Source: an archaeon
GTDB lineage: Archaea; Iainarchaeota; Iainarchaeia; Iainarchaeales; DTGL01
DNA: 64,000 nucleotides
Direction of reading: 5' to 3'
Assembly (NCBI GenBank): GCA_029258755.1
Contig: JAPDKC010000010.1
Location: forward strand, 1-64,000
The notes beneath the pieces are model-generated. The model worked only from the letters and a program-made list of their open reading frames with translations. It did not search any database and was not told the DNA's origin. Made by a program: the position numbers and the translations under genes. Of this stretch, positions 9,244 through 32,318 are shown piece after piece. Position 1 is the first letter of the stretch. Each line of letters begins with the position of its first letter.

Positions 9244-11619
9244 CTATTTTTTATTACTGGCCATTTTTCTATTTGCATCTGTTATAACAAGAATTGTCAG
9301 TGCTAATATGGGAACAGCCCATACAGGAATCTCGCTGACTTGCGTTTTTGGAAAATGCTGCTTAACAAGAATGTAGTAAGTAAGAGAGCATACAACACAC
9401 GAAGAAGTGGTTGGGTGTACTTTTGCAATAATGCCATATACTCCTGGCGTATCGAAAACATAATCCAATTCGTGCATGCTCCCATCACAAGCAATTGGAG
9501 GAGACGTATATTTGACATCACCATTTTTATCCACAATATTTATTATAACTTGCGAAGCATCCCCTGTACATTTAGCAACAACCGCCGTTTTTTCACCAAC
9601 GTTAGTGTCTTTAGCATATAAACTCACTATTCCGCTGATCTGTACGGTGTGTATGGCAACTGGTTCCGACCAATCTGAAACAGCACCGTCAATATCTTTT
9701 GCTCTGCATGTTGCATAGTAAACCTTGTTTGGCTCTGTATAAAGATAATCGTTATAGAATGGCTCCGTAGTTGAAACAATAGTACCGTCGCCAAAATTCC
9801 AATCGTAACCAACAATTGGATCTCCATCAGGATCCGAAGCGTCAACAACTATAAAATCTACGTATAAGGGAGGAACTCCAGCCAAGGGCAAAGCCGAAAT
9901 AATCGGAGGATTAGGCGGTCTATTAGATATCTGCAATATGTTAGTGTCTGATGCCTTTGCACAATCATCATCGGTTACTTCCACAGTTATAGAATAGCTT
10001 GTTTTCTCGGAGAAAATATGCGTTACTTGAGAACAGTCCGAAATGGATGGGTCACAGTAAAATATATTCCCATCTCCGAAATCCCATTTATAGCTGATTA
10101 TTGTACCATCTGGATCGTTTGCATTGGCTCTTAAAACAGTCGGTTCGTTTACGTATGCAACTTCAGGTAAAATTAGGTTAACATCTGGATTTTTGTTTGG
10201 ATTTGTACGCACGAGAAGCTGAGCTGTGCCTGTGAGTCCAAGCTCGTCTTCTGCCTGTAGAGTTATAGTGTAAAGAGTGTCCTTTTCTGTGTAAGGGCCA
10301 CATGTTATTTCGGTAGCTGTGCAATCAACAGATGGATTAGTGCAAGAGATATCATACTCGAAAGTTCCATCGCTGTCGCAATCCCAATGAAGTGCTGCCA
10401 AATCATCATCAGGATCTTGCGTGCCTTCTGCGTTAACCTTAACTTCCAAGGGAACATCACCGACAACAGCCCCGATACTTGGGTTAAAGGGAGGATCTAT
10501 AGGGTTTATAACCGCTTGTGGAGGATCGCCAAATATTACCTTAACCCATGCATAATCTGCTATTTCAGGATTGCCCTTAACCCAAAGCTTATACTTCAAA
10601 AAAACTTCTTTCTCCGGATATGTGGAAGGGAGTGTTAAGGTTAAATCAAAGAAGGTGTATTGTCCATCCCTTCCTACCTCGCCTATCTCAAAGTTAGCAC
10701 CAGGCAAATTATCCCAATCTTCGCCTTCCTCCAAACCAACTACAAAAGTATCACTACTAAGCAGCTGGTATATAATTTGTTTTACCTTATCAGAAACTTG
10801 GCTTGGGTTAGTGTAGGTAAATATCCCCCCCTTAACGCCAGCGTTCAATATTTCTTCCATACACGGTTTCGGGGCTGAATTATTTCCAATTATACCGAAA
10901 AACCAAGCGTCTTTAGCTTTAAGGGCGCTTGCAGCTTCCGAAGTGCCACTACAAAAATGGCCACTTTCATTAGTACAAGGTCCTTCTGGGTCACACACAG
11001 GAGTACAATAATCAGATTCTTCATCGGTTATTACCACTACTGCCTTAACAGTATCGCTTCGCCATCCATAGTTAGCGCTTATTACCTGTTTAGCAAGATG
11101 CGCCCAAGGCTCTATCCAACCAGTACAACCAACCGTATCTAAAGCATTTTTTATTTTGTTAGAACTTCCGGTAAGTCTTATACCACCAACATCATTAGAT
11201 CCATCACAGAAACCAAAATGAGAGAAGAGGTATGGTTTGTCAGTACTTCCCTCAAACACATAAACGCCTGCCTTCATGCACCCATGGCATTCGCTTTCGA
11301 TCTCCTCCATAATCTCTTTTATTCCTTCTTTAGCATCATGAAGCTCTTGGCACATACTTCCGCTAGCATCCAAAATAAAAACTATATCAAGTTTTTTCTT
11401 TATCTCCTCGCTCGTTATATTATTTATAATCTTCCCTTTTAAGTGGTAAGTACCAGGAGCTTTTATAACAAACGCATCAGCTTTTGTATCTGCTTCGTAC
11501 AATGTGCTTTCATCAGGCCCTACTAAAAGCTGAACTGGTTTAGGGGCAGCAAAGACCGCCAAACTCAGGAGCAAAATACTCAAGCTTAGTATGAAACTAT
11601 TGCGAAATTCTCTATACAT
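9244..11619 (-). CDS. Cell-surface vWA-PKD protein with C-terminal membrane anchor
   Basis: A signal peptide (SFILSLSILLLSLAVFAAP) is followed by a von Willebrand A domain with a metal-ion site (VFILDASGSM; later VVVITDEESD) and many cysteines (for example CHGCMKAGVYVF, CTPVCDPEGPC), then several PKD-type repeats (YKWDFGDGNIFYC; YDWNFGDGTIV). The C-terminus is a single hydrophobic helix with a basic tail preceded by SEIPVWAVPIL, which recalls PEF-type archaeosortase sorting signals. vWA and PKD domains bind ligands or partners outside the cell, so adhesion or cell-cell contact is a reasonable role. GGAGGT sits six bases before ATG 11619, so the two extra residues in the track are dropped. It overlaps the upstream surface gene by eight bases, showing one operon. 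Confidence 0.85.
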   Translation of the reverse strand: MYREFRNSFILSLSILLLSLAVFAAPKPVQLLVGPDESTLYEADTKADAFVIKAPGTYHLKGKIINNITSEEIKKKLDIVFILDASGSMCQELHDAKEGIKEIMEEIESECHGCMKAGVYVFEGSTDKPYLFSHFGFCDGSNDVGGIRLTGSSNKIKNALDTVGCTGWIEPWAHLAKQVISANYGWRSDTVKAVVVITDEESDYCTPVCDPEGPCTNESGHFCSGTSEAASALKAKDAWFFGIIGNNSAPKPCMEEILNAGVKGGIFTYTNPSQVSDKVKQIIYQLLSSDTFVVGLEEGEDWDNLPGANFEIGEVGRDGQYTFFDLTLTLPSTYPEKEVFLKYKLWVKGNPEIADYAWVKVIFGDPPQAVINPIDPPFNPSIGAVVGDVPLEVKVNAEGTQDPDDDLAALHWDCDSDGTFEYDISCTNPSVDCTATEITCGPYTEKDTLYTITLQAEDELGLTGTAQLLVRTNPNKNPDVNLILPEVAYVNEPTVLRANANDPDGTIISYKWDFGDGNIFYCDPSISDCSQVTHIFSEKTSYSITVEVTDDDCAKASDTNILQISNRPPNPPIISALPLAGVPPLYVDFIVVDASDPDGDPIVGYDWNFGDGTIVSTTEPFYNDYLYTEPNKVYYATCRAKDIDGAVSDWSEPVAIHTVQISGIVSLYAKDTNVGEKTAVVAKCTGDASQVIINIVDKNGDVKYTSPPIACDGSMHELDYVFDTPGVYGIIAKVHPTTSSCVVCSLTYYILVKQHFPKTQVSEIPVWAVPILALTILVITDANRKMASNKK

Positions 11620-12994
11620 ATCCATACCTCCTGCGATGCCACATCATATAAAGACCTATAAACATTATCGCCAGCGAGCAACATAAAGCTATAAAATAAC
11701 CTATGTGCGGGCTTTCAACTTTTTGATAATTTTCTGGAAACTTATCTAAAGGAACTACTGTAATTTTAACAAAAACTTCCTCAAAGCCAGATTTTTTAAT
11801 ATGTGCTAAATAAACCCCTGGCCGCATGGGATCTATTTTAGCAACCCCTCCAGCATCTGTTACATATTCTTTATCTCCAATAACAACGCTTGCACCCTCC
11901 ACAGGTCCATCAGCTGTTTGCACAATGATTGAAAACGAGCTACCGGGATAAAGACTATTGGGATAGGATACAAGGAGGTTGTTCTCTTTGGAAGATTTTT
12001 CAACGAAAATTTCTGAGCGGTAAGTTTCATAACCCTGCTTAGTAAAAATCACTGGAACTTTGCCAAGGGAAGATGCGCTTGTAAAAACCCTTCCGCTCTT
12101 ATCTGTGATAAATTTTTTCTCTCCGACCAAAACTTCCACGCCACTTACAGGAACACCGCTTACAGAATCTTTAACGGTTATCTCAAAGAGCTTATTCTGA
12201 GCAACCTTGCTTGGCATTATGACGGAAAACTTTCGCGGCTTTTCTACTTTTATTGTGATGCTTGTACTAACAAAACCCATCTTCTCCGCGATAAGCTCGA
12301 ATGTTCCCTCTGTAGGCAAGGTTAAAGACGCTCTGCCTTCAGAATCGGTTAAAACTTCATGTTCGTCAACTTTTATTTTTACGTTAGCCAAAGGAGCTGA
12401 ATTATCATAAGCTTTAACTATGAAGGGGGTGCCAGTTACAATAATATCGGGAAGTTCTATATTTATGTGCTTCCCCGCTTTAAAAACGCTTTTTATATAG
12501 GGCCAAGAGCCATAATGTATCTCAAACTCTGGAGATTGCGTAGAATAGATTGCGCAATTCTTATCATAAAGCGCTAACATAAATTCCTTTTCAGAATCTT
12601 TAATAAGAACACTACTAACTTCTGGGCTGCATATCTGATAGTTATTAAAATTTCTGGTTACGGTAAGTTTTGCTGGCCTTCTTAATAAAATCTTATCATC
12701 TGTAAATGGAGTTGAAATTATATAATAACCAGGGGTCTCAGCAGTAAATGAAAAAATTCCTTGTGAATCGGTTACGCCAGAAACAACAAAATTCTCCGGA
12801 CCAGATACCTTTATGCTTATATCCTCCCTTGGTACACCAGCACACGCAACCAGAACTTTTACTAAAAAGGAATACTCTTTAGTGGTGATATTTGCATGGA
12901 GCTCACAACCAGAATATTTATCATATGCAGGGACTTGTGTGAAGAAAAGCATGGCAAAAACAAATACTAAAGATAGCTTAATTGCTCTTTCCAT
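11612..12994 (-). CDS. Surface protein with repeated carboxypeptidase-regulatory-like domains and C-terminal anchor
   Basis: An N-terminal signal peptide (IKLSLVFVFAMLFFTQVPA) leads into four or so Ig-like beta-sandwich repeats of the carboxypeptidase-regulatory type. Each has a core like VLTDSEGRASLTLPTEG or YVTDAGGVAKIDPMRPG and ends in FV(S/K)ITIKV-like strands. A last hydrophobic helix (FIALCCSLAIMFIGLYMMW) with an RRR tail anchors it, leaving the repeats outside. It is the first gene of a two-gene operon with the vWA-PKD protein, so the pair likely forms one surface structure or stalk. GAGGTTGAG lies before the ATG. The 247-base upstream gap holds its promoter (TTTTAAAATAA-like) and nothing else recognisable. 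Ligand unknown. Confidence 0.82.
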   Translation of the reverse strand: MERAIKLSLVFVFAMLFFTQVPAYDKYSGCELHANITTKEYSFLVKVLVACAGVPREDISIKVSGPENFVVSGVTDSQGIFSFTAETPGYYIISTPFTDDKILLRRPAKLTVTRNFNNYQICSPEVSSVLIKDSEKEFMLALYDKNCAIYSTQSPEFEIHYGSWPYIKSVFKAGKHINIELPDIIVTGTPFIVKAYDNSAPLANVKIKVDEHEVLTDSEGRASLTLPTEGTFELIAEKMGFVSTSITIKVEKPRKFSVIMPSKVAQNKLFEITVKDSVSGVPVSGVEVLVGEKKFITDKSGRVFTSASSLGKVPVIFTKQGYETYRSEIFVEKSSKENNLLVSYPNSLYPGSSFSIIVQTADGPVEGASVVIGDKEYVTDAGGVAKIDPMRPGVYLAHIKKSGFEEVFVKITVVPLDKFPENYQKVESPHIGYFIALCCSLAIMFIGLYMMWHRRRYGYV

Positions 12995-13560: not shown

Positions 13561-13655
13561 GGGCCCGTAGCTCAGCTGGACAGAGCACCGGCCTCCTAAG
13601 GCTCGAACGAGCCGGAAGAAGCCGGGTGTCGCGGGTTCGAATCCCGTCGGGTCCG
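13561..13655 (+). tRNA. tRNA-Arg (CCU) with a 21-nt intron
   Basis: Acceptor GGGCCCG pairs with CGGGTCC, the D-arm is GCTC/GAGC, and the T-arm is GCGGG-TTCGAAT-CCCGT. The anticodon stem CCGGC/GCCGG encloses CT-CCT-AA plus about 21 extra bases (13599-13619) at the canonical 37/38 position. The intron forms GGCTC-GAAC-GAGCC, a three-pair central helix TCC/GGA and bulges TAA and GAA, that is, a bulge-helix-bulge splicing motif. CCA is not encoded; the discriminator is G. A TATA-like CATTTAAATG lies about 30 bases upstream. Confidence 0.93.
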
Positions 13656-14849: not shown

Positions 14850-14862
14850 AAAAATTTAAATC
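14850..14862 (+). promoter_or_regulatory. TATA-type promoter of the leaderless GGDEF gene
   Basis: AAAATTTAAATC is centred about 28 bases before ATG 14884, with no GGTG between. This spacing predicts that transcription begins at or beside the start codon. The adjacent regulator gene shows the same layout (ATTTTAAAG about 28 bases before ATG 15802). Confidence 0.55.
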
Positions 14863-14883: not shown

Positions 14884-15729
14884 ATGGCTAAAAAAAGTGT
14901 CCGCAAAAGAACAGTGAGATACAGGCCAGGTCAAAAATCAAAGGCACTAAGCACAATATCCGCAACGTATCATCTATTAGAAAGATATCCAGAGGTGTAT
15001 GAGCAGCTTCACCAACGGCTTCTAAGAACCATAGTAAGGCTATCGGAAAAAAGAGCTAAAAAAGGCCTTACCCCTAAAGAGAGGCAGGAACTTGCCAACG
15101 CCATAATGAGCATGCGAAACCTTCCGAAAAAAGGATTAAGAACAATCGCTGGAAGAGCCAAGCATATAAGCCGCAGGGCAATGTATGATACAAGATTTGG
15201 AGCATTTCTTACAGATGCATATTTTAAGGAACGGTTACGCATAGAGGGAAAAAAGCATAGGAAGAGTGCAATAGCATTTATCGATATCGATCGCCTGAAA
15301 CAGATAAATGATTCTTATGGTCACAGGGCAGGGGACATAGTAATAAAAAACATAGGAGAAGCTCTAAAAGAAGCTGTTGGTGAACTAGGTTTAGTAGGCA
15401 GACATGGCGGGGAAGAAGTACTCGTATGGGCTCCAACAAGCCCTGAAAAGCTCGCAGAAGTTCTTAGAAATGCAATAAGGATAATGCAGGACCGAATCCA
15501 ATCTGATATGCGAAAAGCTGGAATAAAATTTACACAAAAAGCAACGTTTAGCGCTGGAATTGTACCCGTGTCAGGTGAAGAAATAAGAAAGAATTTTAAG
15601 GAAGCTTACGCTAAAGCCCTAAACGCTGCTGATGAGCTGCTATATCGATCAAAAAAAGCCGGAAGGAACGCATTTACTTTCGTAAAAAGAGGAAAGCCCA
15701 TTACAAAGCGTTTACTTAAGGGGGAATAA
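14884..15729 (+). CDS. Soluble GGDEF-domain protein (putative diguanylate cyclase)
   Basis: Residues 100-270 form a GGDEF domain. FIDIDRLKQINDSYGHRAGD (about 132-151) is the metal- and GTP-binding block, and GRHGGEEVLV (172-181) carries the signature as GGEEV, with the metal-binding acid kept. FSAGIV follows as in active enzymes, which join two GTP into cyclic di-GMP. The RxxD inhibitory site before the signature is absent. The first 100 residues are basic and helical, with no membrane segment and no known sensor. No EAL or HD-GYP partner is in the window. GGDEF proteins are rare in archaea, so transfer from bacteria is possible, although codon use looks like that of the neighbours. A COG1709-type HTH gene follows 72 bases later on the same strand. 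Confidence 0.87.
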   Translation: MAKKSVRKRTVRYRPGQKSKALSTISATYHLLERYPEVYEQLHQRLLRTIVRLSEKRAKKGLTPKERQELANAIMSMRNLPKKGLRTIAGRAKHISRRAMYDTRFGAFLTDAYFKERLRIEGKKHRKSAIAFIDIDRLKQINDSYGHRAGDIVIKNIGEALKEAVGELGLVGRHGGEEVLVWAPTSPEKLAEVLRNAIRIMQDRIQSDMRKAGIKFTQKATFSAGIVPVSGEEIRKNFKEAYAKALNAADELLYRSKKAGRNAFTFVKRGKPITKRLLKGE

Positions 15730-15801
15730 TTCGTCAAATAAACTTTTAAAAAATGACGATTGACGAAACAATTTTAAAGCTTGTCTGGCTCTAATTCTTA
15801 C

Positions 15802-16512
15802 ATGGAAAAGCTTGCAGTAACAATAGCCGGAGAGATAACTCTGAGCAAGGACCCTGGCGGAAGTATGAAAAAATGGCGTGAAATATTTGGTATAAGCCAA
15901 ATCGAGCTAGCTGAGCATCTAAGGGTAAGCCCTTCAACCATAAGCGATTACGAAGGCGGAAGGCGCAAAAGCCCAGGTATTGGCGTAATAAGCCGATTTG
16001 TAAATGCGCTTATCGAAATAGATATGAAGCGTGGTGGAAAGATAGTAAAACAATTGATGAAGGATTTTGAGCCAAGTGAGGAAGCATTTGATGTGCATGA
16101 ATTTTATGGTGCTGTAAAAGCCACCGAGTTTGCTAAGCGCATAAATGCTGTTTGTGTTGCAAACCATGCCAAACTCAAAGAAACGCTGATATACGGCTAT
16201 ACTATAATAGATTCTTTTAAGGTCATAGTTGAGGTTCCTGTACATGAATATATGCATCTTTATGGAAGAACTCCTGAAAGAGCTTTAATCTTCCAAAAGG
16301 TTGTGAGCGGTCGCTCCCCCATGATCGCTGTAAAGATTGGGCGTTTCAGTACTGATATGAAACCAGCTGTAGTGGTACTTCATGGCCCAAAAGATCCGAA
16401 AAAGGTTGATGAAATAGCTATAAAGATAGCGGAAAGCGAGCACATCCCTCTGCTTGTATGCAATACACCAGTCTACGAAATAAAACAAGCTCTAAAAGAA
16501 TTCGAGGTTTAG
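15802..16512 (+). CDS. XRE-type HTH transcriptional regulator (COG1709-like)
   Basis: An N-terminal helix-turn-helix (WREIFGISQIELAEHLRVSPSTISDYEGGRRKSPG, about residues 28-65) matches the archaeal COG1709 group, preceded by the usual AGEITLSKDPG segment. The C-terminal 150 residues form an alpha/beta domain (YGYTIIDSFKVIVEVPV, MKPAVVVLHGPKDP, IPLLVCNTPVYEI) likely to bind a small ligand; none is known. The start is taken as ATG 15802 because TTTTAAA lies 28 bases before it, fitting leaderless transcription; the track uses TTG 15781. It follows the GGDEF gene, so a nucleotide signal acting through this regulator is an attractive but untested idea. Confidence 0.82.
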   Translation: MEKLAVTIAGEITLSKDPGGSMKKWREIFGISQIELAEHLRVSPSTISDYEGGRRKSPGIGVISRFVNALIEIDMKRGGKIVKQLMKDFEPSEEAFDVHEFYGAVKATEFAKRINAVCVANHAKLKETLIYGYTIIDSFKVIVEVPVHEYMHLYGRTPERALIFQKVVSGRSPMIAVKIGRFSTDMKPAVVVLHGPKDPKKVDEIAIKIAESEHIPLLVCNTPVYEIKQALKEFEV

Positions 16513-16519
16513 CTTAACA

Positions 16520-17209
16520 TTATATTCTTACGCTGTAAGTATATTTAACTTTGGGTTTTCCATCTTTAGTCAAACCAGCCAAAGTAGAGGATTTCTTTAC
16601 ATTGGCTTTATATTTTCTCTTCAGCTCCGCAACAGCACTTTTTGCAGCTTTCTTTGATCCTATTAATAAATCGTAACCATTCTTTCTCTTTATCATTTTA
16701 ACTATTTCAGCCAGAGTATCGTTTTTAAGCTGCGAGGCAAGAACATCCTTTATCAAATAAATGGCTCTCTTTATTTTTGCTTTATCTTCCGCTCTGAGCT
16801 GAATTGTTACCTCATAATAGGAAGAGCTTATTTTAAGGCAAGATTCGCAATACTGAAGCTTGTATTGGATAAACGTTTCGTAACTTGTGCTAAGAGGCAC
16901 GCCTTCCACCTTGCATGAAACATTTAAATAAATCTTTAACCCTTTGCCAGTATGCTCAGCTTCTATTGCCAGCGAAGGTCTTTCAACATCGCTCCACTTT
17001 ACTTTACTAAGGATGAACTTAAGCAAGCTATCAGCATTTTCCTCCAACCACCGGCCGCGAACAAGGATCTTTCCACATCTTTTACATTTTGGAAGAATGA
17101 GCTTTCTGTCAATCCTAAGCAACCTATTATCTTCTAAGAAACACCTTGTGCAAAACCCCCTGACAAAAGGCCCTTTTTCTGTCCCGCATTTAGGACAAAA
17201 GCTTACCAA
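16520..17209 (-). CDS. nmd3: Nmd3-like ribosome-associated zinc protein
   Basis: Two N-terminal zinc ribbons (FCPKCGTEKGPFVRGFCTRC and CKRCGKILVRGRW) open a 229-aa chain matching COG1499, the archaeal homologue of eukaryotic NMD3, which helps 60S maturation and export. In archaea it is thought to act in large-subunit assembly or quality control. A second CESCLKISSSYYE motif follows in mid-chain, then a basic alpha/beta domain. The start is TTG 17209: GGTGAT lies four bases before it, and the TAG of the upstream membrane gene ends at 17210. Operon order aCPSF2, membrane protein, nmd3 links RNA decay and ribosome functions. Confidence 0.85.
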   Translation of the reverse strand: MVSFCPKCGTEKGPFVRGFCTRCFLEDNRLLRIDRKLILPKCKRCGKILVRGRWLEENADSLLKFILSKVKWSDVERPSLAIEAEHTGKGLKIYLNVSCKVEGVPLSTSYETFIQYKLQYCESCLKISSSYYEVTIQLRAEDKAKIKRAIYLIKDVLASQLKNDTLAEIVKMIKRKNGYDLLIGSKKAAKSAVAELKRKYKANVKKSSTLAGLTKDGKPKVKYTYSVRI

Positions 17210-22992: not shown

Positions 22993-24015
22993 TTAATATT
23001 CTTTAACCTCTAGCTTGCTCTCTTTTTCTTTTATTTTTGCAATAAGAAGCTCTAAGCATTTATGCAATACCTGATCCGTTGAGGAAGCCTTGCCGGTAAA
23101 CGCTGCAGCTGTTGCATGCCCTCCGCCCTCACCTTCAAAGAAATCCGAAAGCTTGTGAAATATATCCTTTGCTAGGTCTAAGTTATACTCTTGGATCAAG
23201 GAAAATCTTGCTCTGCCAGAGACCCTAATGTTATGATCTTCCGCAGTACCAACAAATGCAACATCCGCACCAAGATGAATTAATGCTGCTGCTGACTGGG
23301 ATTCAAACGCGCCTATCTCGCTGAGAACAATAAGCAATTTATTTACTCTAAAAAGCTTTGTGCGTTGCGCAGCTTTAAGCAATGCTATTCGCTCACTTAA
23401 CTCTCGTTTAACAGAAAATAGCTCAATTAATTCGCTAAGTGTCTTATCTGTTTTTTCAAAAACTTCAGCCATTACTTTAAAAGTGTTTTTGCTTGCAAAA
23501 GAAAAGTGCGCAGTATCTGCTATAATACCACACGCTGTTAGCAAAGCAATTTTTTCATTAAGCTTGTCTTGTGCATTGGCTGAGAGAAAACGCCATAAAA
23601 CCTCGGTAGTTGAAGCTGCATCTTCAACTATAATCGAATCCTCCTCTTTAGCGATTTTATCCTTGCCCTTGCTGTGATGGTCAAAAAGGAAAATATTGCC
23701 ACTAAAGTTTTTCACTTTCTCAGCGAAAGAACCGAGCATACCGTAGGAGTTCAAATCAACTATTACTAAAGTATCGAAAAAAGAGAAATCTGGGGTAAGC
23801 GAATAGGGTATCTCCATTGTTTCTGCCAAACGTTTTGCAGAATTATTCAAATGCTCCGGAACACCTATCTCAACATAGTTTTTACCCAGCAAAAGCAATC
23901 TGACTATTGCTGCAGAAGCTAACGCATCTACATCCGCACCTCTATGGGAAATCACTAATACCTTTTTGTCTTTGAGGTTTAAAAGTTCAGCTATGCCCAT
24001 AAAGACCGCATTCAC
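22993..24015 (-). CDS. DHH/DHHA1-family phosphoesterase (RecJ/NrnA-like)
   Basis: 340 aa with the DHH motifs: SHRGADVDALASAA (motif I), VIVDLNSYG (II), FLFDHHSKGK (III, DHH) and TACGIIADTAHFSFA (IV), then the DHHA1 substrate domain ending FEGEGGGHATAAAF (GGGH). Such archaeal proteins act as single-strand exonucleases, oligoribonucleases or cyclic-dinucleotide hydrolases. The last is worth noting because a GGDEF protein is encoded in the same window. The GTG start at 24015 overlaps the prefoldin stop; ATG 24000 is an alternative. Last gene of the L37Ae operon. Confidence 0.88.
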   Translation of the reverse strand: MNAVFMGIAELLNLKDKKVLVISHRGADVDALASAAIVRLLLLGKNYVEIGVPEHLNNSAKRLAETMEIPYSLTPDFSFFDTLVIVDLNSYGMLGSFAEKVKNFSGNIFLFDHHSKGKDKIAKEEDSIIVEDAASTTEVLWRFLSANAQDKLNEKIALLTACGIIADTAHFSFASKNTFKVMAEVFEKTDKTLSELIELFSVKRELSERIALLKAAQRTKLFRVNKLLIVLSEIGAFESQSAAALIHLGADVAFVGTAEDHNIRVSGRARFSLIQEYNLDLAKDIFHKLSDFFEGEGGGHATAAAFTGKASSTDQVLHKCLELLIAKIKEKESKLEVKEY

Positions 24016-32133: not shown

Positions 32134-32240
32134 ATGGTACGCCGGGAGTGGGATTCGAAATAGGAACCTCCAGCGGGTTCCTATTACCTCCAGCAACCAT
32201 TAGGAACTTGATAATGGTAACGCCGGGAGTGGGATTCGAA
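32134..32240. repeat. Direct repeat of the tRNA-Ser 3' end with an 80-bp spacer unit
   Basis: The last 20 bases of tRNA-Ser (acceptor 3' strand and half of the T-arm) plus six or seven bases of 3' flank occur twice, at 32134-32159 and 32214-32240, differing by one base. The unit between contains a 9-bp inverted repeat (ATAGGAACC...GGTTCCTAT) and two copies of ACCTCCAGC. It resembles an att-site scar at a tRNA 3' end or a small tandem duplication. No integrase is nearby. Confidence 0.7.
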
Positions 32241-32318
32241 CCCACGCGTGCTTGCGCACACCAGCTTTTTGGCATGAAAACTCCAAGCTGGCGCCTTGGG
32301 CCGCTCGGCCATCCCGGC
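32221..32318 (-). tRNA. tRNA-Ser (GGA) with a 14-nt intron
   Basis: Acceptor GCCGGGA pairs with TCCCGGC, a long variable arm is present, the T-arm is GTGGG-TTCGAAT-CCCAC, and the discriminator is G, as in Ser. The anticodon stem CCAGC/GCTGG encloses TTGGAG, 14 extra bases and A, giving anticodon GGA. TTGG pairs with CCAA of the intron beside a three-A bulge, a relaxed bulge-helix-loop splice site at 37/38. A TATA-like TTTAAATTAAAT lies about 35-40 bases upstream. Confidence 0.88.

Follow-up and report, generated by a model that had tools for sequence, protein, structure and literature searches.

The locus lies within a window of 64,000 nucleotides, which is the whole stretch of archaeal DNA that was analysed, and centers on a gene on the forward strand (14884-15729) encoding a GGDEF-domain protein of 281 amino acids, recognised by its PF00990 match, its AlphaFold2 model and its conserved residues. 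It is followed on the same strand, as had been predicted, by the gene for a COG1709-type HTH regulator of 236 amino acids (15802-16512), then by a convergent gene on the reverse strand for an NMD3-family protein (16520-17209; PF04981, 155 bits) and, farther away and also on the reverse strand, by a gene for a DHH/DHHA1 phosphoesterase-family protein (22993-24015; PF01368 and PF02272). A TATA-like box, TTTAAA, is present on the forward strand 29 bases before the ATG of the GGDEF gene (14855-14860) and again 29 bases before ATG 15802 of the HTH gene (15773-15778), in line with the earlier proposal that both genes are leaderless with equal TATA spacing, and an A/T-rich box is found at a similar distance before the GGDEF gene in two congeners. 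Right after the GGDEF stop codon lies an inverted repeat, TTCGTCAA-22 bases-TTGACGAA (15730-15767, forward strand), a putative operator of the HTH gene. Elsewhere in the window, two large proteins predicted to be secreted or exposed at the surface (9244-12994), in which von Willebrand and PKD-like repeats were seen by eye, sit between conserved upstream genes and the MFS and GGDEF genes, and there are two tRNA genes (13561-13655, 95 bases; 32221-32318, 98 bases) whose lengths leave room for an intron or a long variable arm.

The GGDEF protein, the only one in the genome of 1,212,838 bases, matches the Pfam profile PF00990 over residues 113-262 with 88.4 bits (E = 5.7e-25), well above the curated cut-off of 23.8 bits, and matches TIGR00254 with 91.3 bits. 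A helical N-terminal region (27-100) precedes the GGDEF domain (about 113-265), and both FIDIDRLKQIND and GGEEV are present, so that the well-formed domain described in the original prediction is confirmed. Alignment to relatives showed that D134, K139, N142, D151, G175-G176-E177-E178, K257, and R261 are intact. We take their counterparts to be D327, K332, N335, D344, the GG(D/E)E motif, K442, and R446 of PleD, which make the metal, phosphate and guanine contacts, N142 and D151 occupying the guanine-contacting positions. Moreover, the position of D344 (D151 here) is, given the roles established for PleD and GacA, the one that separates ordinary from Hypr GGDEFs, and with D151 kept the protein does not carry the Ser/Thr change of the Hypr (cGAMP synthase) type. 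For an unusual GGDEF clade without known c-di-GMP receptors one might imagine a different product, 3',3'-cGAMP or c-di-AMP for example, but with both guanine-contacting residues kept we regard this as improbable. The enzyme that we favor would instead join two GTP molecules into c-di-GMP.

It had also been stated that the protein has no RxxD inhibitory site, sensor or membrane helix, and this was borne out. The inhibitory-site positions are occupied by G166 and G169 in the alignment and RxxD is therefore absent; there is no sensor domain; and no membrane helix was detected, the highest 19-residue hydropathy being 0.73. Feedback inhibition at the canonical I-site would thus not be expected. The DxLT motif, a common feature of GGDEF proteins that is not needed for profile membership, is missing before the domain, where the alignment places DTRF instead, and this may affect activity. 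The AlphaFold2 model (mean pLDDT 86.9) consists of N-terminal helices and a GGDEF fold, with SiaD, DgcZ, and a bacteriophytochrome cyclase as the best PDB matches and DgcR next. Dimerization would most likely occur through the N-terminal helices. The N-terminus is very basic (pI 11.6), and PADLOC returned a marginal Cas10 match alone (E = 0.0095).

It has been argued that a single archaeal GGDEF, in Methanocella, was known and that contamination was to be feared for others (Galperin and colleagues, PMC5847659), and an essay of 2022 held that archaeal GGDEFs need confirmation (PMC10086821). In spite of these doubts in print over GGDEFs on archaeal contigs, we consider it very unlikely in the present case that the assembly is contaminated with bacterial DNA or that the gene came from bacteria very recently, because it sits on a contig of 165 kb with archaeal-type neighbors including NMD3, and the gene order of the locus was found again in two further assemblies. 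Exosome-like and proteasome-like neighbors, named from their sequences, are also present on this contig, and among named loci the nearest come from Candidatus Diapherotrites assemblies. Together with the grouping of the order's copies in one clade, described below, these observations led us to reject contamination: the gene is truly archaeal, and it is not a one-off.

The expectation that such domains are rare in archaea proved untrue within this order, in which 25 of the 75 genomes contain one or two Pfam GGDEF matches each. The order has a lineage-specific family of soluble proteins, with 27 copies in 23 of the 75 genomes, spread over seven families, and D-x-[KR]-F, for instance D-P-K-F, replaces the bacterial DxLTG in most copies. 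In a maximum-likelihood tree the 27 archaeal rows grouped with support of 100/98, apart from 31 bacterial rows, and in a second tree, to which the closest plasmid and phage GGDEFs were added and from which the most degenerate rows were taken out, 22 archaeal rows grouped at 83/84; bacterial sampling was small in both. In ten of the 27 loci the GGDEF gene is no more than one gene away from gatD, and in families f8 and f20 several of these have a common gene order that includes genes for flavin reductase, diphthamide synthase and DNA ligase. Elsewhere in the order the family is thus often found, in several families, at a conserved site by gatD/gatE and not next to the HTH regulator. The loci concerned include L157-L165, L167, and L180, where gatD encodes the archaeal Glu-tRNA amidotransferase and the gene order is common to two families. 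The tree grouping and the recurring gatD-side order point to a gene passed down vertically since an ancestor inside the order. Searches of phages and plasmids recovered bacterial GGDEFs only, those listed having 26-35% identity, and as far as sampled the family is restricted to this archaeal order.

The downstream regulator has a different distribution. Its start is most likely ATG 15802 and not TTG 15781, since in the homolog alignment sequences from outside the nearest congeners begin to match the TTG version no earlier than about residue 7-8. The protein matches HTH_3 with 34.7 bits, and homologs are found in 80 of the 93 genomes, mostly without a GGDEF neighbor. The COG1709 label rests on the original assignment and on this near-universal distribution, consistent with the listing of both COG1709 and NMD3 as specific to all Archaea (PMC1852104). 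Like the COG1709 proteins, which have an HTH and a conserved C-terminal region, it is pan-archaeal and in this respect ordinary; what is particular is the GGDEF neighbor, confined to one family. The ligand-binding-like C-terminal domain that had been proposed was not established: Pfam gives the HTH alone, a PDB sequence search returned HTH matches only, and past the HTH the predicted model is of too low quality to be compared with known folds.

When up to one mismatch is allowed, 18 of 20 loci have TTGACGAA upstream of this gene, compared with 5.6% of shuffled sequences, and its inverted partner is often 30 or 39 bases away (loci L032-L061, across the order); the exact TTCGTCAA/TTGACGAA pair occurs once in the genome, at 15730-15767. 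The conservation of this element indicates that the HTH gene has a promoter region of its own, with or without a GGDEF gene in front of it, and the repeat is probably an autoregulatory operator. The HTH gene belongs to a synteny block, found across the order and mostly without a GGDEF gene, that comprises the HTH regulator, NMD3, a membrane protein and a beta-CASP nuclease. When conserved adjacency was looked for, as had been suggested, it was present in part: three species of the genus (G000, the genome of the window, G001, and G004) have a GGDEF gene immediately before the HTH gene, and a broken GGDEF remnant occupies the equivalent site in a sister genus (G005), but the HTH genes of most relatives, G002 and G006 among them, have none; in G003 the contig ends at this very site, so that it counts for neither group. 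The remnant (L038, 764-1436) is flanked by a tRNA gene and the HTH gene, with its N-terminal part in one frame, its GGEEF half in another and the FxDxD segment missing. Because the regulator is found without GGDEF and with an element of its own, we infer that the pairing is a local accident of gene order inherited in one family, and that the HTH gene would be an unrelated housekeeping gene, independently promoted and probably self-regulated.

The nearby DHH/DHHA1 gene that had been pointed out is real; some 6.5 kb separate it from the end of the HTH gene, and 7 kb from the GGDEF gene. Its protein is generic in the order (73 of 93 genomes, including GGDEF-less ones), and a functional link to GGDEF was rejected since this distribution bears no relation to it. 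The joint occurrence of the domains recalls GdpP/COG3887, in which a degenerate GGDEF is fused to DHH-DHHA1; here, in contrast, the genes are separate, the GGDEF is nondegenerate and the genome has no match to a diadenylate cyclase, although DHH and DHHA1 domains are present. Diadenylate cyclase (DAC) domains were seen in four of 27 relatives (L191, L192), none of them in the family of the window. The proposal of a minimal nucleotide-signaling set, in which a dinucleotide made by the GGDEF protein would be sensed by the HTH protein and degraded by the DHH protein, could draw on the adjacency in G000, G001, and G004, on the G005 remnant in place, and on one G057 GGDEF copy at the opposite end of the HTH synteny block. 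Yet both presumed partners are widespread without GGDEF, the HTH gene has its own promoter element, most members of the GGDEF family sit elsewhere, and a diadenylate cyclase is lacking here, so that we consider it very unlikely. The archaeal GGDEF family is real; the three-gene signaling set is unsupported.

A canonical c-di-GMP system, with an EAL or HD-GYP hydrolase and a PilZ or MshEN receptor, was not found in this genome. EAL and PilZ were absent from all 93 genomes and MshEN from all 27 searched; HD_5/HD-GYP had no match in this genome, and Rfam identified only tRNAs, and no c-di-GMP riboswitch, in the window. Canonical partners are therefore absent or unrecognizable, which leaves c-di-GMP without a known partner in this genome; at a completeness of 94%, however, the assembly could have missed one gene. 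HD_5 domains of the HD-GYP type occur in seven of the 93 relatives (L091-L094), some of which also have a GGDEF.

The absence of EAL, PilZ and MshEN would also be expected if the protein were degenerate, making no messenger and binding GTP or nothing, with a binding or scaffold role by analogy with degenerate bacterial GGDEFs. The missing DxLT motif and the very basic N-terminus could be read in the same way, and the active site has lost residues in several members of the family: G019, G021, and G045 have GTDEF or GSDEF together with G at the D344 position, G052 and G067 have G at that position, and the copies of G005 and G013 are broken. These losses suggest that the family is at times dispensable. 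However, nearly all catalytic residues are intact in the protein of the window and in two congeners, in which the reading frames are open and the active-site motifs kept while synonymous sites are saturated and dN is about 0.42 (the G004 protein is one residue short at the GRN motif). Open frames in three species at such divergence indicate that the gene has been under purifying selection, and we find degeneracy of this protein rather unlikely.

With the domain and its residues intact, D151 kept, a model that matches diguanylate cyclases and reading frames conserved in three species, we favor with moderate confidence the interpretation that the protein is a soluble, sensorless diguanylate cyclase of the order's own GGDEF family that makes c-di-GMP beside an incidental housekeeping regulator. 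It resembles the bacterial cyclases SiaD, DgcZ, DgcR, and PleD (PF00990) in domain, fold, metal, GTP and GG(D/E)E residues and helical N-terminal stalk. It differs from them in lacking a sensor or receiver domain and an I-site, in having D-x-[KR]-F for DxLTG and V for F in GGEEV, and in belonging to an archaeal host without EAL, PilZ or MshEN. The receptor and hydrolase for its product would differ from the known bacterial ones.

Braun and colleagues reported more than 300 archaeal GGDEF BLAST hits, many in Asgard and DPANN archaea, and found no c-di-GMP in two model archaea (PMC8646023). Their DPANN and Asgard hits likely include members of the family described here; that study gave hit counts only, and the present one delimits a single family and places it with synteny and phylogeny, the family appearing to be vertically kept. 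Among the openly accessible papers found, none was seen to give an experimental description of an archaeal diguanylate cyclase. It is conceivable, and we offer this tentatively, that the order keeps its own diguanylate cyclases and uses c-di-GMP through partners unrelated to EAL, HD-GYP, PilZ and MshEN, as an independent archaeal branch of this signaling. Whether archaea use c-di-GMP has long been open, in part because archaeal GGDEFs were suspected to be contamination. The occurrence of the family across seven families of one order, in archaeal neighborhoods, removes this doubt for these sequences, and the family offers single-gene, sensorless enzymes that can be directly expressed and assayed.
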